Below the pieces are notes generated by a model that ran no database searches, was not told where the DNA came from, and saw only the letters and a program-made list of their open reading frames with translations. Source: an uncultured Opitutales bacterium (GTDB lineage Bacteria > Verrucomicrobiota > Verrucomicrobiia > Opitutales > UBA9783). Taken from it: a stretch of DNA of 6,085 bases. Location: NCBI GenBank assembly GCA_934700265.1, contig CAKUXH010000059.1, positions 1 through 6,085 of the forward strand, given 5' to 3'. A program made the translations under genes and the position numbers. Of the stretch, positions 1 through 6,085 are shown piece by piece. Every line of letters starts with the position of its first letter. The first letter of the stretch is position 1.

Positions 1-3000
1 AGCTTCTAATGTAACTTGAAATTCATCTTCATGGTTTAATACTATAATAGTACTTTCTTTTTCATTTTCTTTAGTTTCTGTTACTGCTGGTTGTTCTTCT
101 TTATTTTCACTTGCTTTTATATTTACTTTTAAACCATCTCTAAATTTATCACTTGCTTTTGAATTTGTTTTTCTAATATGTTCATATATAGAATTTGCTA
201 CTAAACCTGAATTAACTGTAATTCCAAGACTTTTAGCAATTTTTAGTGCTATTTCATTAGGTACTTGAATAATCTGAGCATCTGTAACTTTTTCAATCCA
301 CTTTCCAGCAGTTTTCTTTACTATCTCTTTATATTCTCCAGTTGGTACTTCTTTAACAAGATTTTGAAGTAAGTCTTTTCCTAAAACCCATCCTCTATTA
401 TCTGCTGTATTTACTTGAAATGCCATTTGTTCAAATACTTCTGGTTTTAATTCTCCTTTATTAAAAGCTTGAAAAACTTCATTAAAAGATGCATCTTGTC
501 TAAATTTTCCATTAGCATCAACCAAATTTTTCGGAAATACTTTATCTGTAAAATTTTTAATTCCACTTACAGTTGAATCTCCAAAACCACTTTTGTCAAA
601 GAATACTGCCCCAAGACTGTTATCTTGTCCTAATGTTGTAGAAACAGGATTTTTAGCTCCACCATATACTGATCTATACATTGTAACTGCTTTACCATCA
701 TTAGCTTTAAAAATATCTTGTGCTGTTAAATTATCTGGTAATCGTTTCTCCATAATTGGTTCTTTTGTTACAACTTCTTTTCCAGGTTCCCATACTCTTT
801 CAACTTTTCCTGGTATTTTCTTTGTCACCATAATATTCTCACTTATCCATTTTTCAAGTTTTGGACCTAGATAAGTTGTAAATGCTGCTTGTGCTATTCC
901 TTTTACTACTGTAACTCCTGTTGTAATTGCTTCTTTACTAGCAATATCATGTTGTTTTTCTGTAACTGCATCTGTTTGAACTGAATCAGTTGCTCCACTA
1001 TTCTCTAATATTTGAGCTTCTTTAACTGTTTCTTGTAAAAGTTGTTTTTTTGCTTCTAATGCCTGTTTAGCTTGTTCTATATTAGGTGCTTTAGGATTTG
1101 TTTTTATAGCATTATCTAACTGCAGAATTTGATTCAATAATTCTTCAGCATTAGATTGTGCATTATTCATTTTTGCTCTATTTTCTTCAATTCTACTAGT
1201 ATTATCTTTTAATCTTTTTGCACCTTCTTCTAAGATTTCTTCATTTCCTTTTGATGCTTTAAAAACAGCATTAAACCTTGAAGAAAAATAATTTTTTATT
1301 GGATGATTTTCTTGATTTTCTTTATCATTTTGAGATGCTACCCTTTCAAAATGTTCCCTTCTTGCAACATATCTATGATACCAATTATTTCTATAAGGTG
1401 ATGCTTCATCTTTATAAACAGCTTTATGTATAGGAGCTACAATTTTTTTACCAATAAAGCCATATACTGGCGCAAACACATTATTTCTTACAGCTAATGC
1501 TGCATTAGCTACTGCTCTTATTGGAAGTGGTAATCCTCCTTTTGGAATATATGGAACCTTTTCACCATATTTTCCTAGTGTAACTAAATTATTTTGATCA
1601 ACTTCATGTTCATTAAATGTATAATTATTTGTTCTAATATATTCTTCATCTCTTTGAAGCATTTCTTCTAATTCATCTAAATTTGCCCCTTGATATACAC
1701 TTGTATCTCCAGCTCTATACCTAGTACTTCTTTCTAGTGCTTTTTGGTATCCATCTAAAAGTAAAAATTGTTCATCTTCTGCCTTTTCTGGGTAATCCCT
1801 AATTGTCTTATATTCAATATTTCTTTTCTCATCTTTTACTGTTACAATATTAGCCTTAAATCTTGCTTTTCTTTCTAAAAATTCAGCGTCTCTTTCTTTG
1901 TCTCCGTAAAATTTAGCTCTCATGTCATCTATGGCCTTTTGAGTTTTTGCTTCTACCTCTTTTTCATCTACTTTACCATCATTATTTGGATCATCTGGTA
2001 TTTCTATTTTTTCTCCTCCATTTGGATTTGGCCATGTATCAATTATAACAGTATCTGGTCCATCTGGTTCTTTGTCTGGTTCGTCTTTATCCTTCTCTGG
2101 ATTTTTTAATTTATCTATTTCTTCCACCAAATAAGTATATCTTGAATTTTCTTCTGCATATGCTTGCATATTTCCATCTCTTTTTGCATCTGACATTCTT
2201 TTTGCACATTCTCTTAGTCTTCTTTCAAGATCTGATATTTTGTCTGCATTATCATTTCCAGGAGATTCTTGTTCTTTTTTTGGATTTTTTAATTTATCTA
2301 TTTCTTCTACCAAATAAGTATATCTTGAATTTTCTTCTGCATATGCTTGATCATTTCCATCTCTTTTTGCATCTGACATTCTTTTAGCACATTCTCTTAA
2401 TCTTCTTTCAAGATCTGATATTTTGTCTGCATTATCATTTACTGGTGTTTCTTGTTCTTTTTTAGGATTTTTTAATTTATCTATTTCTTCTACCAAATAA
2501 GTGTATCTTGAATTTTCCTCTGCATATGCTTGGTCATTTCCATCTCTTTTTGCATCTGACATTCTTTTAGCACATTCTTTTAATCTTCTTTCAAGATCTG
2601 ATATTTTGTCTGCATTATCATTTCCAGGAGCTTCTTGTTCTTTTTTTGGATTTTTTAATTTATCTATTTCTTCTACCAAATAAGTATATCTTGAATTTTC
2701 TTCTACGTATGCTTGCATATTTCCATCTCTTCTTGCATCTGACATTCTTTTTGCACATTCTCTTAGTCTTCTTTCAAGATCTGATATTTTGTCTGCATTA
2801 TTATTTACTGGTGTGTCTTGTTCCTTATCTGAAATTTGTTTTTCAGTAGAATCTTCTTCTGGCTCCTCTGGCTGTACTTCTGCATCTTCTGTTACAAGTT
2901 CTTTATGCTTAATCTTTAATCTTTTATCTAAATATTTTAGCTTTTCATCAGCATCTTTTAAGAATCCATTAAACTTAGTAACTCTATTTTCAATTTTTCT

Positions 3001-3198
3001 AATATCTTTTTTCTTTATATATCCATTAGCTAAATCACTTTTCATTTTATCAACTAATTCTTGAATAGCTCTTTCTAATTGTTGTACTTTTTTTCGAACT
3101 TCTCTTAATTGATCATCATTTTGAGCACCTTTAATCTCTTCATCTAATTCTTTTAAATTCTTTTTAAATTCTGTTTCATAAGATTTATATTCTGCCAT
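1..3198 (-). CDS. Gene C: large repeat-containing coiled-coil protein, unknown function (3' end beyond window)
   Basis: I translated this frame through all 1066 codons and found no stop; it runs off the left edge, so the C-terminus is missing. ATG at 3198 is chosen because AAAAGGAG sits 8 nt upstream. Layout by residue: 1-100 charged coiled coil; 105-133 acidic linker rich in Pro and Glu; 134-367 four 61-residue repeats; 368-400 Pro/Asp/Gly-rich linker; 403-414 EF-hand-type loop; about 415-547 charged, mostly helical; 548-617 Pro-, aromatic- and Arg-rich stretch; 650-736 second coiled coil; 757-779 weakly hydrophobic stretch interrupted by Lys; 789-820 Pro/Gly/Val-rich; about 823-1020 more globular (FDKSGFGDS, GWVLGKDLLQ); then another acidic linker. 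There is no signal peptide, so it is probably cytoplasmic. The repeats match those of gene A upstream, which links the two genes. I recognise no family. The coding call is firm; the function is unknown. Confidence 0.93.
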   Translation of the reverse strand, partial: MAEYKSYETEFKKNLKELDEEIKGAQNDDQLREVRKKVQQLERAIQELVDKMKSDLANGYIKKKDIRKIENRVTKFNGFLKDADEKLKYLDKRLKIKHKELVTEDAEVQPEEPEEDSTEKQISDKEQDTPVNNNADKISDLERRLRECAKRMSDARRDGNMQAYVEENSRYTYLVEEIDKLKNPKKEQEAPGNDNADKISDLERRLKECAKRMSDAKRDGNDQAYAEENSRYTYLVEEIDKLKNPKKEQETPVNDNADKISDLERRLRECAKRMSDAKRDGNDQAYAEENSRYTYLVEEIDKLKNPKKEQESPGNDNADKISDLERRLRECAKRMSDAKRDGNMQAYAEENSRYTYLVEEIDKLKNPEKDKDEPDKEPDGPDTVIIDTWPNPNGGEKIEIPDDPNNDGKVDEKEVEAKTQKAIDDMRAKFYGDKERDAEFLERKARFKANIVTVKDEKRNIEYKTIRDYPEKAEDEQFLLLDGYQKALERSTRYRAGDTSVYQGANLDELEEMLQRDEEYIRTNNYTFNEHEVDQNNLVTLGKYGEKVPYIPKGGLPLPIRAVANAALAVRNNVFAPVYGFIGKKIVAPIHKAVYKDEASPYRNNWYHRYVARREHFERVASQNDKENQENHPIKNYFSSRFNAVFKASKGNEEILEEGAKRLKDNTSRIEENRAKMNNAQSNAEELLNQILQLDNAIKTNPKAPNIEQAKQALEAKKQLLQETVKEAQILENSGATDSVQTDAVTEKQHDIASKEAITTGVTVVKGIAQAAFTTYLGPKLEKWISENIMVTKKIPGKVERVWEPGKEVVTKEPIMEKRLPDNLTAQDIFKANDGKAVTMYRSVYGGAKNPVSTTLGQDNSLGAVFFDKSGFGDSTVSGIKNFTDKVFPKNLVDANGKFRQDASFNEVFQAFNKGELKPEVFEQMAFQVNTADNRGWVLGKDLLQNLVKEVPTGEYKEIVKKTAGKWIEKVTDAQIIQVPNEIALKIAKSLGITVNSGLVANSIYEHIRKTNSKASDKFRDGLKVNIKASENKEEQPAVTETKENEKESTIIVLNHEDEFQVTLEA
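1957..1992 (-). other. EF-hand-type calcium-binding loop in gene C
   Basis: Residues 403-414 read DPNNDGKVDEKE. This fits the 12-residue EF-hand loop: acidic or Asn ligands at positions 1, 3, 5 and 9, Gly at 6, a branched aliphatic at 8, and Glu at 12. A helix plausibly follows (VEAKTQKAIDDM), but the preceding segment is rich in Pro and Gly and is unlikely to be helical. That makes it dockerin-like or an isolated loop rather than a full paired EF-hand. Calcium binding is inferred from the pattern alone. Confidence 0.6.
2098..2799 (-). repeat. Four tandem 183-bp (61-aa) repeats inside gene C
   Basis: Units begin at 2799, 2616, 2433 and 2250, exactly 183 bp apart, so the frame is kept. The fourth is conserved for about 51 residues and then diverges after KNP. 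Each unit reads NADKISDLERRL, (R/K)ECAKRMSDA, (K/R)RDGN, then QAY.EENSRYTYLVEEIDKL and KNPKKEQE, followed by a short linker with TPVN, APGN or SPGN. This predicts two amphipathic helices joined at the DGN turn, separated by a Pro-containing linker. The middle two units differ at only about five bases over the conserved part, which points to recent duplication or gene conversion. Confidence 0.95.
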
Positions 3199-3206
3199 AT
3201 TCTTAT

Positions 3207-3214
3207 CTCCTTTT
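3207..3214 (-). promoter_or_regulatory. Shine-Dalgarno site of gene C
   Basis: The minus strand reads AAAAGGAG, 8 nt before the ATG at 3198. This is close to ideal and fixes the start of gene C. Confidence 0.9.
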
Positions 3215-3243
3215 ATTACTTCTTATATAAAATATACTTATCT

Positions 3244-3263
3244 ATAATATAACATAATATAAC
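3244..3263. repeat. Perfect tandem 10-bp direct repeat upstream of gene C
   Basis: Two adjacent copies of ATAATATAAC (plus strand) occupy 3244-3253 and 3254-3263, about 45-65 bp before the gene C start. On the coding strand each copy reads GTTATATTAT, which includes a -10-like TATTAT. It could be part of a promoter, a protein-binding site or simple AT-rich sequence. Confidence 0.7.
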
Positions 3264-3274
3264 AAGAAATAACA

Positions 3275-3357
3275 TTACAGAATTATTATTTTTTTATTAC
3301 AAAAATATTACATTATAAGTTACATAATTATTTTAACATTTTTTGTGCAATTTTACA
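3275..3357 (-). promoter_or_regulatory. Five TTACA/TGTAA motifs upstream of gene C, spaced near multiples of 11 bp
   Basis: TTACA (plus strand; TGTAA on the coding strand) begins at 3275, 3297, 3308, 3320 and 3353. The intervals are 22, 11, 12 and 33 bp, so all five face roughly the same side of the helix. All share one orientation, and I saw no other copy in the gap between genes B and C. A phased operator array is possible, but a five-base motif in AT-rich DNA can recur by chance. Confidence 0.3.
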
Positions 3358-3358
3358 A
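3330..3358 (-). promoter_or_regulatory. Candidate promoter for gene C
   Basis: On the minus strand a -35-like TTGTAA (3358-3353) is followed after 17 bp by TAAAAT (3335-3330), matching the sigma-A consensus at 4/6 and 5/6 positions. A perfect TATAAT also lies at 3317-3312 but has no good -35 at the usual distance. Given the A+T content the exact promoter is uncertain. The 130-nt distance to the start codon implies a long 5' leader. Confidence 0.35.
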
Positions 3359-3359
3359 A

Positions 3360-3385
3360 TTAATAATTATTATATATATTATTAA
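3360..3385. repeat. AT-only inverted repeat downstream of gene B
   Basis: TTAATAAT (3360-3367) and ATTATTAA (3378-3385) form 8-bp perfect arms around a 10-nt AT spacer. The stem has no G-C pairs, so it would be a weak RNA hairpin and is not convincing as a terminator. The rest of the gap between genes B and C (3215-3415) holds only AT-rich sequence with the boxes listed separately. Confidence 0.4.
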
Positions 3386-3415
3386 AATTTCTTATGGAAT
3401 TCAAACAAAAAAACA

Positions 3416-3616
3416 TTATCTTGATTCCTCATCTTGTTTTTCAGATTCATTTTCTTGTACTTGACTTGTTTGTGCAATTTCAGGACTTGAGCCTGTTTTC
3501 TCGTTATCATTGTACTCTAATTTTAATTCAAAATCTTCTTCTGGTGCACTTTCTTCTTTTTCTAAATCTTCTTTTACTTTTATGCTTTCTTTAAAATCAT
3601 TCTTTTTTACATCTTC
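3416..3616 (-). pseudogene. Out-of-frame C-terminal extension of gene B
   Basis: After the TGA at 3597 the neighbouring frame is open from 3616 to a TAA at 3416-3418 and has no ATG of its own. Entered near 3601 it would add 61 residues starting NDFKESIKVKEDL, continuing acidic (EESAPEEDFELKLEY) and ending in a polar tail (EIAQTSQVQENESEKQDEESR without a break). The strong purine bias of the coding strand seen in gene B continues right up to 3416 and then stops, which argues that this stretch is or was coding. Joining it needs a +1 shift (or loss of one A) around the A6 run at 3603-3608. It may be a decayed 3' end, a sequence error or a rarely translated extension. Confidence 0.55.
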
Positions 3617-4655
3617 CTAAAATTCTATCAAATATTGATGTTTTTGTTAAATCAATATTAATATCAATGTTATGTTTCCCTTTAAAATCATCACTATATC
3701 CAAATGCTGAATTTAATCTATCAATAATTGTAAAGGCTTCTTTATTTTTCTCAGTATCTTTCTTTAATAATGCCTTAAAAATATTTAATTGCATATTTGA
3801 AAAATTCTCTAAATCATTTTTTATAAATTCTAATTCTAATTTCTTCTTTTCACTTAAATCTTTATACCATTTATTATTAGCTTCTACATCTTGAAGCACT
3901 CCATCTACTGTTAATCCTGCAGCACTTAGTTCTACTTTAATTTTTTCTTCTTCTTGCTCTTCTTTTTTCTCTTCTTTACCTTCTCCATTTTTTGAACTAT
4001 CAGTTGTTGGTGTAGGTTCTGTAGAAGTTTTTGGAGCTTTTACTCCATAATTTTCTAATGCCATTCCATATTCTGGATCACCTGGTTCTAATCCTTCTGC
4101 TACTAATTCATCTTTTTGTTCTTGTGTTAATTTTGAACTTAAATCTTCCTCTTTTTTTGTTTCTTGTTCTTTTGGATTTTTTTCTAATTTTATTCCATAA
4201 TTTTCTAATGCTGCATTATATTCTGGATCACCTGGTTCTATTCCATTTGCAATTAATTCGTCTTTTTGTTCTTGTGTCAATCTTGAATCATATTCATCTG
4301 ATTTTTTATCATCTTTCTTCTCATCTTTTTGATCTTTGTCATTTTTATCTTTTTCTTTTTTCTTAATTCCAAAAATTTCTCTAATCTTAGATGTTTCTAA
4401 ATCTTTAAACTTCAATCCCATAATTCTTTTTATCTTTTCAAGAATTTCATCATTCTTTTTTATTTGCTCTTCAATTCTTTCCTTAGTTTTTTCATGATCT
4501 TTATATTGTTCTAAATACATTTGAAGCTTTTTATTATTTTTTTCTAATTTTTCTTTCTCTTTTTCTAATCTTTCTTGAATTTCTTTATCAACATCAGAAG
4601 TATCAACTTCTTTTCCAGCTAACTTTTTCTCTAATTTTTTCTTTTCTTCTTTATG
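3597..4655 (-). CDS. Gene B, main part: acidic coiled-coil protein with tandem EPGDPEY motif, unknown function
   Basis: This frame ends with TGA at 3597 and codes for 352 residues from 4655. An ATG at 4520 would give 307 aa, but no Shine-Dalgarno precedes it (only AAAAAGCTTCAA). Upstream of it, 45 coding-like codons continue in frame (HKEEKKKLEKKLAGKEVDTS, then DVDKEIQERLEKEKEKLEKN), so 4520 is unlikely to be the true start. The best reading is the continuation of the ORF at 4909 through a -1 shift at the A7 run, giving about 437 aa. Layout: long coiled coil; a Lys/Asp-rich run (KKKEKDKNDKDQKDEKKDDK); two copies of a 33-residue motif; a Thr/Pro/Glu linker; an acidic run; then a region with GLTVDGVLQDVEANNKWYKDL and AFTIIDRLNSAFGYSDDFKG that looks more folded. 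No signal peptide, membrane helix or recognised family. A function cannot be assigned. Confidence 0.8.
   Translation of the reverse strand, partial: HKEEKKKLEKKLAGKEVDTSDVDKEIQERLEKEKEKLEKNNKKLQMYLEQYKDHEKTKERIEEQIKKNDEILEKIKRIMGLKFKDLETSKIREIFGIKKKEKDKNDKDQKDEKKDDKKSDEYDSRLTQEQKDELIANGIEPGDPEYNAALENYGIKLEKNPKEQETKKEEDLSSKLTQEQKDELVAEGLEPGDPEYGMALENYGVKAPKTSTEPTPTTDSSKNGEGKEEKKEEQEEEKIKVELSAAGLTVDGVLQDVEANNKWYKDLSEKKKLELEFIKNDLENFSNMQLNIFKALLKKDTEKNKEAFTIIDRLNSAFGYSDDFKGKHNIDINIDLTKTSIFDRILGRCKKE
4038..4286 (-). repeat. Two-copy 33-residue motif in gene B (LTQEQKDEL...EPGDPEY...ALENYG)
   Basis: Copies lie at 4286-4188 and 4136-4038, a period of 150 bp (50 residues) with a Lys/Glu/Pro linker between them. 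Both read S(R/K)LTQEQKDEL(I/V)A, then (N/E)G(I/L)EPGDPEY and two variable residues, then ALENYG(I/V)K. They are identical at 26 of 33 positions. The pattern suggests a short helix, a Gly-Pro-Gly turn and a second helix. The substitutions are mostly conservative, as expected under selection. This motif is unrelated to the hairpin repeat of genes A and C. Confidence 0.9.
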
Positions 4656-4909
4656 TTTTTTTCTAATTCTGAAATTGCTTGCTTTTTTACACCATTTAAT
4701 CTTATTAATTCTGTTGAATCTACAGAACCTGCCATTATTTCATATTGATGTTCAAGTTCTTGTAATTCTTGTTTACTTATTCTTTCTTGTTTTTCAAGTT
4801 GTTTTTTCAAATATTTTTCTTCATTTTCATCTAATTTTTGTACTGTTTCTTCTTTGTTTTCTCTTTTTTCTAATAATTCTTCTAATTCTTCTTCAAAATT
4901 TTTTTCCAT
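4631..4909 (-). CDS. Gene B, N-terminal ORF: acidic coiled-coil, frame interrupted
   Basis: ATG at 4909 follows AAGGGAG by 7 nt, so this is a well-supported translation start. It encodes 92 residues ending with TAG at 4631. The sequence is almost entirely heptad-like coiled coil rich in Glu, Lys and Leu (FEEELEELLEKRENKEE, YLKKQLEKQERISKQ), with a short break at MAGSVDSTELIRLNG. The last eight residues (NIKKKRKN) come after an A7 run. Sliding back one base there gives the coiled-coil sequence of the next ORF instead. I therefore read it as the start of gene B rather than a separate small gene. A standalone 92-aa product remains possible if no frameshifting occurs. Confidence 0.8.
   Translation of the reverse strand: MEKNFEEELEELLEKRENKEETVQKLDENEEKYLKKQLEKQERISKQELQELEHQYEIMAGSVDSTELIRLNGVKKQAISELEKNIKKKRKN
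4653..4663 (-). other. Candidate frameshift site in gene B (A_AAA_AAC heptamer in an A7 run)
   Basis: The coding strand reads GAA AAA AAC, then AT. The heptamer A_AAA_AAC (4661-4655) is in exactly the phase needed for simultaneous -1 slippage. After slipping, the next codon is CAT (4655-4653), in the frame that stays open to 3597. Before the run the upstream frame looks coding (KKQAISELEK) while the other gives unlikely sequence (RFCRFN, KWCKKASNF); after the run the situation reverses. No Shine-Dalgarno lies just upstream. The only perfect hairpin seen downstream (AGAAGT/ACTTCT) is about 43 nt away, too far for a usual stimulator. Transcriptional slippage, phase variation, mutation or a missing A in the assembly fit equally well. 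Confidence 0.6.
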
Positions 4910-4916
4910 ATATACA

Positions 4917-4923
4917 CTCCCTT
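4917..4923 (-). promoter_or_regulatory. Shine-Dalgarno site of gene B
   Basis: The minus strand reads AAGGGAG, 7 nt before the ATG at 4909. It supports 4909 as the single initiation point for the whole split gene B. Confidence 0.88.
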
Positions 4924-4959
4924 AAAAAATTGACATATACTTATATTATATATGTCAAT
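4924..4959 (-). terminator. 11-bp inverted repeat plus T run between genes A and B: weak terminator or operator
   Basis: ATTGACATATA (4929-4939) and TATATGTCAAT (4949-4959) are perfect inverted copies separated by 9 nt. On the minus strand the hairpin is followed directly by TTTTTT, the layout of an intrinsic terminator for gene A, whose stop is only 9 bp upstream. The stem has just two G-C pairs, so termination would be weak and some read-through into gene B is expected. Each arm also contains TTGACA, a perfect -35 hexamer, though I see no -10 at a good distance. An operator role is an alternative. Confidence 0.45.
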
Positions 4960-4968
4960 AATTCAAAT

Positions 4969-5820
4969 TTATTTTTCTAATCCATCATTTTTATCTAATG
5001 GTTTTATAATTGCATCAGCTGCAATATCTATGCTTCTCATACTTGTTTTACTATTTTCTTTTGTTTTTAATGCTTCTTTAAATTCTATTGTCTTTTTGTC
5101 AATTGTAGATTTTTCTTCATTTTCTTTTACTTCTTCTAATTTTTCTTTCTTGCTAAATACACTTATTACTTTTTCTTTTATTTTTCCTATAAATTTATTT
5201 ATTTTTTCTCCAATTTTCTTTATAAATCCTCTTACTTTTTCTATATTTGATACATTTTTTTCTTCTTCTTTGGCTTCTTCTGAACTAATTGATAAAGAAA
5301 AATTTTCTTCAACTCCAGCTTCTCTAAGTTTTTCAACTAAATATACATATCTAGAATTTTCTTGAGCTTCTCCTTCTATATTTCCATCATTTTTAAATTC
5401 TTTCATTCTTTTTGAACATTCTGATAATTGTCTCTTTAAATCATCTATATCCTCTACTTTTTCTTCTTTTTTTACATCTTCTTCATCAATTTCTTTATTT
5501 TCTGATAAATCATTTATTTTTTGTGTTAACTCTGCAAATCTAGAATTTTCTTGGGCTTCTCCTTCTATGTATCCCTCTTCTTTAAATATTTTTCTTCTTT
5601 CTGCACAATCTTTTAATTCTTTTTCTAATTCTGCTATTTTAACTTTTCTTTCAATTTCTCTTTTTTCTTCTTCTCTTAATTTTGATATTTCCTCTGTTAT
5701 TTCTGCAAATCTAGAAGCTTCTTTTGCTTCTCCTTCTGTATAACCTTCTTCTTTAAATACTTTTCTTCTTTTTGCACTTTCTTTTAATTGTTTCTCTAAT
5801 TCATTAATTTTATCTTCCAT
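4969..5820 (-). CDS. Gene A: 283-aa triple helical-hairpin repeat protein with cationic amphipathic segment, unknown function
   Basis: ATG at 5820 follows GAAAGGA by 10 nt; the ORF ends with TAA at 4969. Residues 4-48, 61-105 and 124-168 are three diverged copies of a hairpin repeat: (I/L)..LE..L with (C/S)(A/S).R, a Gly turn, EGEA.E.SR(F/Y), then L...I or a similar pair. The repeat Cys is present in copies 2 and 3 (Cys71, Cys135) and is Ser15 in copy 1. Residues 175-194 are an acidic linker. Residues 195-228 (KVRGFIKKIGEKINKFIGKI and onward) are strongly basic and amphipathic, and could lie on a membrane or bind an acidic partner. The C-terminus ends in SIDIAADAIIKPL. There is no signal peptide or transmembrane helix. 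It is the first gene after tuf and has its own promoter. The repeat is the same type as in gene C. I recognise no family. Confidence 0.9.
   Translation of the reverse strand: MEDKINELEKQLKESAKRRKVFKEEGYTEGEAKEASRFAEITEEISKLREEEKREIERKVKIAELEKELKDCAERRKIFKEEGYIEGEAQENSRFAELTQKINDLSENKEIDEEDVKKEEKVEDIDDLKRQLSECSKRMKEFKNDGNIEGEAQENSRYVYLVEKLREAGVEENFSLSISSEEAKEEEKNVSNIEKVRGFIKKIGEKINKFIGKIKEKVISVFSKKEKLEEVKENEEKSTIDKKTIEFKEALKTKENSKTSMRSIDIAADAIIKPLDKNDGLEK
5317..5811 (-). repeat. Three diverged helical-hairpin repeats in gene A, homologous to those of gene C
   Basis: Copies lie at about 5811-5677, 5640-5506 and 5451-5317. Conserved features are LE.(Q/E)L or LKRQL; the (C/S)(A/S)(K/E)R core; F(K)..G at the turn; EGEA; E(N/A)SR(F/Y) in the second helix. 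Copy 3 (LSECSKRM, NDGN, ENSRYVYLVEKL) is closest to the gene C units (RECAKRM, RDGN, ENSRYTYLVEEI). Unlike gene C, the copies have diverged strongly and their spacing is not constant (57 then about 63 residues), so this array looks older. Confidence 0.85.
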
Positions 5821-5860: not shown

Positions 5861-5889
5861 ATTATACCTCATTTATGTCAATTTGCCAA
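5861..5889 (-). promoter_or_regulatory. Sigma-A-type promoter of gene A
   Basis: On the minus strand TTGGCA (5889-5884, 5/6 match) is followed by a 17-bp spacer and a perfect TATAAT (5866-5861). Transcription would start near 5854, leaving a leader of about 35 nt. A TTGACA also occurs in the spacer, but only 9 bp from the -10, so it is not the -35 for this box. This is the strongest promoter in the window and makes gene A independent of tuf. Confidence 0.8.
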
Positions 5890-5963: not shown

Positions 5964-6000
5964 AAAAAAACAAGAACTACTCTTAGTAATTCTTGTTTTT
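5964..6000 (-). terminator. Rho-independent terminator of tuf
   Basis: On the minus strand AAAAACAAGAATTACT (6000-5985) pairs with AGTAGTTCTTGTTTTT (5981-5966) as a 16-bp stem with one G-U wobble and a 3-nt loop (AAG), and runs into a stretch of T. It starts 15 bp after the tuf stop codon. It separates tuf from gene A. Confidence 0.92.
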
Positions 6001-6015
6001 GGTATTCAAATATTA

Positions 6016-6085
6016 TTATTCGATTATATCAGCAACAACACCTGAACCAACTGTTCTACCACCTTCACGAATAGCGAATCTTAAT
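6016..6085 (-). CDS. tuf: Elongation factor Tu, C-terminal 22 residues (5' part beyond window)
   Basis: The minus strand from the right edge reads LRFAIREGGRTVGSGVV then ADIIE and a TAA stop at 6016-6018. This is the end of EF-Tu domain III, the GTPase that brings aminoacyl-tRNA to the ribosome. The motif FAIREGGRTVG is nearly invariant in bacterial EF-Tu, so identification is secure despite the short stretch. The GSGVV and IIE ending fits Firmicutes. It is followed closely by its own strong terminator. The four codons here using CGT, GGT and GCT reflect the usual translation-optimised usage of tuf and contrast with the AGA/GAA/AAA-heavy genes downstream. Confidence 0.96.
   Translation of the reverse strand, partial: LRFAIREGGRTVGSGVVADIIE

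Follow-up and report, generated by a model that had tools for sequence, protein, structure and literature searches.

A 49-residue helical-hairpin unit in two neighboring genes and in a modular family of related proteins

The locus and its shared hairpin unit

We analyzed a stretch of 6,085 bases (the window) from an uncultured Opitutales bacterium, contig CAKUXH010000059.1, with a focus on a helical-hairpin unit found in two of its genes, designated A and C. The window is seemingly the entire contig, and every gene in it, as well as every feature located below, is on the minus strand. Gene A (4969..5820) encodes 283 residues, with three hairpin units at about residues 3-51 (5668..5814), 61-109 (5494..5640) and 123-171 (5308..5454) followed by a lysine-rich tail. 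Gene C (1..3198), which is open at the window edge, encodes at least 1066 residues. It begins with a front module designated N3 (residues 1-110; 2869..3198), predicted to be a three-helix bundle, continues with four hairpin units (residues 136-184, 197-245, 258-306 and 319-367; 2647..2793, 2464..2610, 2281..2427 and 2098..2244, respectively) and ends with a back module designated alpha (from residue 400; 1..2001). Gene B (3418..4909) lies between them in pieces, 4909-4631, 4520-3597 and one more open stretch, with a 3' limit at about 3418. It contains two copies of a 35-residue repeat (4182..4286 and 4032..4136), referred to below as repeat 2.

The original prediction, made by reading the window, held that one repeat of about 45 residues is common to gene A (three copies) and gene C (four copies). 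This was confirmed, with a length of 49 residues, and Tandem Repeats Finder independently reported a period of 183 base pairs with 4.0 copies at 2098-2823 of gene C. A hidden Markov model (HMM) built from the three A units scored the four C units at 54.4-61.3 bits, whereas the top score among 24,000 shuffles (plain, heptad-position-preserving and hydrophobic-pattern-preserving; 23,702 of them yielded a score) was 21.4. In the reverse direction, the profile of C units scored the third A unit at 55.5 bits and the other two at 35.3 and 28.8 bits, the last (unit A2) being just one bit over the top of 18,000 shuffles (27.8). An HMM of 12 units from five other genomes, which contained no window sequence, gave 38.5-52.6 bits for the seven units of the window, compared with a top score of 29.6 among 14,000 shuffles and of 5.3 among 117 control proteins, mostly open reading frames (ORFs) from the loci of relatives. 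The comparison with composition-matched sequences that had been proposed, carried out here as shuffles, showed a similarity exceeding chance in every direction tried. Because the unit scores exceed both shuffles and control proteins, the seven copies are, on sequence grounds, one real homologous element.

Among 28 distinct units, Gly24 is invariant (28/28), and the other best-kept positions are Leu10, Ala14, Glu32 and Tyr/Phe36 (26 each), followed by Ile3 (25) and Leu6, Arg16 and Ala30 (24 each). The Cys-Ala-x-Arg and Asn-Ser-Arg pairs, which had been regarded as a helix-packing signature, are local only: elsewhere, Ser mostly takes the place of the Cys, and relatives have ASK, HEN or HQE instead of Asn-Ser-Arg.

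AlphaFold2 predicted every copy to be a two-helix hairpin with its turn close to the Gly, least surely for the third unit of gene A. The gene A model (16 sequences) had a mean predicted local distance difference test score (pLDDT) of 68 and a predicted template modeling score (pTM) of 0.34, with pLDDT of about 85-92 in units 1-2 and 69-82 in unit 3. In this model, one continuous helix (28-82) forms both the second helix of unit 1 and the first helix of unit 2. The gene C model (34 sequences; mean pLDDT 72.5, pTM 0.43) shows four hairpins, mostly at pLDDT 82-93, separated by linkers below 50, like beads on a string. Its predicted order is the three-helix bundle, the hairpins, a region of helices (412-787) and a region rich in beta structure (790-980). 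Together, the shuffles, control proteins and models support the view that the unit is a specific helical hairpin instead of a generic coiled coil.

Related proteins and their genomic surroundings

Gene A has 36 other matches with identities of 71-100%; the coverage of one is only 36%. Gene C also has 36 matches, of which eight contain the unit and 28 do not. The unit profile matched 2/292 genomes of the family of G001, 2/53 genomes of the genus of G130 and 1/368 genomes of the phylum, the last being G001 itself, which is also among the five genomes found with the gene A profile. The latter profile matched 2/292 genomes of the G001 family, 5/385 of the order and 3/195 of the G462 family. These genome samples overlap, so that their counts are not additive, and they do not include the genome of this window. 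In the scans of one order and two families the nearest gene A match had an E value of 2e-20, and no close relative was found there or in the scan of one genus with the unit profile. Two loci are in named genome contigs (L001 and L002), both from uncultured Clostridia, and the label Clostridia for the protein family is based on these two distant loci.

Nine proteins have the N3 front (gene C, P0001-P0007 and P0011). They continue with 2-4 detected units and then with one of three tails: alpha in gene C, beta in seven proteins and gamma in P0006. The change to a different tail starts roughly 20-45 residues past the last unit. Gamma is also present in G462, behind a front designated N2, three units and two copies of repeat 2; a fourth tail, delta, is found in G002 behind N2, one unit and three copies of repeat 2; and alpha occurs in many other matches behind N1 or N2b fronts without the unit. 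Using hhalign on shallow alignments, no relation was detected among alpha, beta and gamma, and it is in this sense that the tails are called unrelated; the sole link was weak, between beta and delta (E 9e-4, probability 23). We infer that alpha, beta and gamma may be alternatives at one site, from equal-sized contigs and for beta only.

Two observations concern the region between front and tail. Gene C (2780-2840) seems to be without most of a divergent first unit that is found in P0001 and other N3-front proteins, and the start of this unit passes straight into the following linker. In addition, the unit-free P0018, P0022 and L016 (an 874-residue ORF) have other tandem, probably helical repeats behind the front (such as REAMIAGR... 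in P0018 and P0022), which gives the impression that every lineage has an arm of its own behind the front module.

Gene B had been described as unrelated to its neighbors. This did not hold, because its repeat comes after the A/C unit within single proteins of G001, G002 and G462. Repeat 2 has the pattern LTxEQxxELxxxGxxPGDxEYxxxLxxxGI, and its two copies in gene B scored 76.9 and 75.4 bits. With a profile made only from the copies of G001, G002 and G462, they still scored 46.8 and 42.0 bits, respectively, compared with 25.5 bits for the top of 10,000 shuffles. As detected by these profiles, the unit and repeat 2 are in separate genes here and in one gene elsewhere. Gene B has ten matches, eight of which are 415-503 residues long; three of the ten have two copies of repeat 2, four have one copy, and in the other three it was undetected. 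The longest of these eight, P0078 (503 residues), spans both sites at which gene B is broken in the window. At the second break (within 3597-4909) some tens of residues are missing compared with P0074 and P0078, and a short base string there is readable in both frames. The breaks may be real or an assembly error. The tail of gene B (about 3418-3560) and the C-termini of P0001-P0005 and P0007 have similar acidic ends with the string FELKL.

With regard to genomic location, the original prediction had expected relatives in tuf-linked loci. Relatives with the unit are indeed located near translation genes; however, in four of the five unit-bearing genomes (G001, G002, G306 and G462) the unit gene directly adjoins trmFO, not tuf, whereas in this window the unit is found beside tuf. 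In G002 and G462, rpsL is further along, on the opposite side of the unit gene from trmFO, and in G001 the contig stops inside the unit gene. For proteins with the alpha module, we examined 14 stretches, drawn from 13 of the 18 genomes with a match: six are between trmFO and rpsL, one is beside rpsL at a contig end, and one, in G161, follows fusA-tuf with a single intervening ORF, as seen in the window. The names trmFO, rpsL, rpsG, fusA and SNF2 helicase come from our reading of the translated proteins, which we take to be these.

A proposed hairpin arm and competing explanations

The most economical interpretation, which we regard as about as likely as not, is that the homologous 49-residue hairpin unit serves as an extendable arm for spacing and docking, placed between front and back modules that are interchangeable, in a protein family many other members of which flank the str operon of uncultured Clostridia. 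Its basis in sequence is the homology of the copies, tandem amplification in each gene, and the joining of one front plus units to three tails among which no similarity was detected; further basis is provided by the presence of the unit and the gene B repeat in single proteins of three genomes and by the location next to trmFO or rpsL, in most of those examined relatives in which such genes are nearby, and next to tuf in the window. The hairpin arm, as modeled, would be stacked via a continuous helix in protein A and carried on flexible linkers in protein C, and it might set reach, spacing or valency between the front module and an exchangeable back module. Beyond the sequence and the predicted fold, the function of the arm is what we infer. 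It is possible that A, B and C act jointly as one membrane-associated scaffold, in which A would touch the membrane surface by a lysine-rich amphipathic stretch. The candidate stretch (residues 193-217; 5170..5244) has a hydrophobic moment of 0.69 and is covered by a helix predicted at low confidence (182-232). Clearer hydrophobic segments are present in G306 (hydropathy 1.68, transmembrane-like) and P0006 (1.98). Contact with the membrane is suggested by the amphipathic stretch together with hydrophobic segments in some of the tails, but for the proteins of the window itself this indication is weak.

An extended version of this idea is a combinatorial scaffold system in str-operon islands of one Clostridia order, in which fronts, adjustable hairpin arms and unrelated backs are shuffled between genes and species, and in which A, B and C form one membrane-associated assembly whose back is swapped between strains. 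We regard this extended version as unlikely.

Several observations weigh against the arm interpretation and its extension. Gene B is broken at two places in this contig relative to its relatives. The back module does not need the unit, which is absent from 28 of the 36 gene C matches, and the unit itself is rare (2/292, 2/53, 5/385 and 1/368 genomes in the scans above). The unit gene of G130 is away from both trmFO and rpsL, and 6 of the 14 alpha-family stretches are without trmFO, rpsL or fusA-tuf nearby. No transmembrane segments were found in gene A and no strong ones in gene C (top hydropathy 1.28), and the moment of 0.69 in the gene A stretch is hardly distinctive against values of up to 0.62 in a unit helix.

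The alternative that survives best, although we think it rather unlikely, is that the three tails belong to separate paralogues lying side by side in one genome, generated by duplication of the front half and not by exchange at one site. It would agree with the facts that the three tails are nowhere seen at the same genomic site, that alpha also occurs without the unit in 28/36 matches and that two alpha proteins are encoded on different contigs in G155; moreover, the window stops inside gene C, which places the part downstream outside the view. However, P0004 and P0045 are on equal-sized contigs (65,310 bases), as are P0011 and P0082 (4,724 bases), which suggests that beta lies near gene A or gene B in these cases. 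This argument is indirect and is compatible with both readings.

If tail exchange is true, the arm interpretation would provide a natural case of a constant arm with exchangeable heads, as well as a handle on many uncharacterized large proteins in uncultured Clostridia. If it is not, the unit nevertheless gives annotation a new and cleanly defined repeat family. In either case, a narrowly distributed helical-hairpin repeat is defined which no curated model describes whole, and three neighboring uncharacterized genes are linked to a modular family located next to genes that are among the most conserved in bacterial chromosomes. The wider interest depends mainly on tail swapping and joint assembly being proven.

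A second alternative concerns the origin of the copies. Mean unit identity within proteins was 0.96 in C, 0.78 in G130, 0.77 in G001, 0.69 in G462, 0.50 in A and 0.47 in G306, and between unlike proteins it was 0.22-0.45 (outside the G001/G002/G462 group). Higher identity within than between proteins is as expected under local amplification; the copies in each gene seem to have arisen by multiplication within that gene, and A and C look to have had the unit in common for a long time. The original prediction had suggested that the repeats may have moved between the genes, and a recent movement by recombination or gene conversion could be considered because the unit is present in both genes of one locus and the third A unit is the most C-like (55.5 bits with the C profile, compared with 35.3 and 28.8). 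It is nevertheless very unlikely and found no support in our data, since A-to-C identity (0.42) is not above A-to-G130 identity (0.43), DNA identity of A to C units is only 0.61-0.65, and a tree of 31 units, which was poorly resolved (6/25 inner branches well supported), did not group the third A unit with C. Among 37 gene A proteins, 35 have three units, one has two, and one fragment has none. The near-alike gene A proteins P0070 and P0072 differ by one whole unit (three vs two), which fits gain or loss of a unit.

We also compared the unit with known domains. The claim that no named domain matches was correct in that none of the curated models describes the whole unit, but gene C passes the cut-off of PF04508 (Pox_A_type_inc, A-type inclusion protein repeat), with 42.3 bits vs 21.4, whereas gene A (16.9) is below it. 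Among relatives, P0002 (21.3, just short) and P0006 (15.3) are both below the cut-off, and P0001 and P0003 bear this Pfam label. PF04508 is similar to the unit in being tandem and coiled-coil-like; however, its match spans only part of helix 1 of the 49-residue two-helix unit and covers positions 8-21 (gene C) or 10-20 (gene A) of the 23 in the model. No model of tetratricopeptide-type repeats was among the Pfam matches of units or whole genes with E values up to 10, of which HMMER filters drop most above about 0.1.

That the unit is a diverged known hairpin, such as the ClpB middle domain or the UVR motif, which docks a chaperone or nuclease partner, is in our view quite improbable. The ClpB middle domain is the nearest geometric analogue of units 1-2 of gene A, in which a ClpB-like arrangement of two hairpins on one long common helix is predicted (superposable), whereas the hairpins of gene C are separate. 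However, this structural score is often reached by unrelated helical models, and no ClpB was found up to E 10 in a profile search of solved-structure sequences, made without a profile comparison against a ClpB alignment. The UVR motif presumably resembles the unit as a short helical hairpin with conserved Ala and Arg, although we take the loop of the unit to be longer; its model (PF02151) matched 1 of 11 units (E 1.7), was not listed for whole genes and stayed below the cut-off. Foldseek searches of the gene A and gene C models against PDB gave no match at E 0.001 or better. The top neighbors of both models were the de novo designed helical repeats DHR71, tcTRP9 and DHR81, which are repeated two-helix proteins but, unlike the unit, artificial, and most whole-chain root-mean-square deviations were above 20. 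VIA-align rows for both models were within the usual range of helical models, and the profile searches of solved-structure sequences yielded nothing credible (best E 1.1 in one and 0.035, to Prp6, in the other). Likeness to spectrin-type and other three-helix bundles concerns the front module of gene C, as the unit is predicted to consist of two helices instead of three. The structure of the gene C tail was predicted only within the whole chain, and its beta-rich part was barely probed by the structure search. At the level of titles and abstract openings, no literature naming these proteins was found. A DNA-binding tandem-repeat protein from a ruminant-gut Clostridia genome, pTERF, is described in part of one paper (PMC11417379).

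It is similarly improbable that the arms are parts of polymorphic proteins that are displayed at the surface or injected. A constant front plus units with changing tails would be consistent with such proteins, as would the transmembrane-like segment in G306, but genes A and C have no apparent export signal on reading, the tails, of about 530-670 residues, are large and show conservation within each type, and no convincing match to a toxin, defence or phage family was obtained. No toxin families were among the Pfam matches of the examined tails; immunity genes were not searched for. A phage or defence origin was considered separately and set aside. Relatives of A or C were not found in viral contigs, in searches limited to a few peptide patterns, and PHROGs provided only families of unknown function (gene C matched phrog_6170 at E 1e-6 in a 25-residue segment of one unit, and gene A had no match). 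PADLOC gave nothing for A or C and weak matches (E about 0.01) for P0006 and P0074.

Finally, that the similarity is a merely composition-driven coiled coil is extremely improbable: the match to PF04508 would fit it, as would the matches to coiled-coil families such as SMC, which were weak (E 0.001 or weaker) and which we treated as generic, but the shuffles, the control proteins, the genome-wide scans (no match in 290/292 genomes of the G001 family and 367/368 of the phylum) and Gly24 in 28/28 distinct units rule out chance or a generic coiled coil, provided that the shuffles were suitable.

Flanking elements and the trmFO-rpsL interval

Upstream of gene A, the window contains the 3' end of a tuf gene (6016..6085; last 22 codons and stop, translation LRFAIREGGRTVGSGVVADIIE), whose product we take to be EF-Tu. 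In the relative L037, a 400-residue EF-Tu-like ORF closes with the same string as far as GSGVV. A terminator-like stem follows tuf at 5966..6000 (a pattern scan found three such sites vs 0.9 expected), and a promoter-like site precedes gene A at 5861..5889 (11/12 consensus bases, spacing 17), which is the top-scoring of 25 sites in the window. Such sites are not enriched (25 vs a mean of 31.4 in shuffles) and provide weak evidence; thus, both calls are only hints.

In several relatives (L037, L038, L040, L042, L043 and L020), the trmFO-rpsL interval contains more large uncharacterized ORFs beside the alpha proteins, and this interval looks like a variable island. ORFs of 455 residues in L038, 442 in L042 and 452 in L040 have a common string like YEDAREDVTxRK, and L043 has an ORF of 1057 residues.

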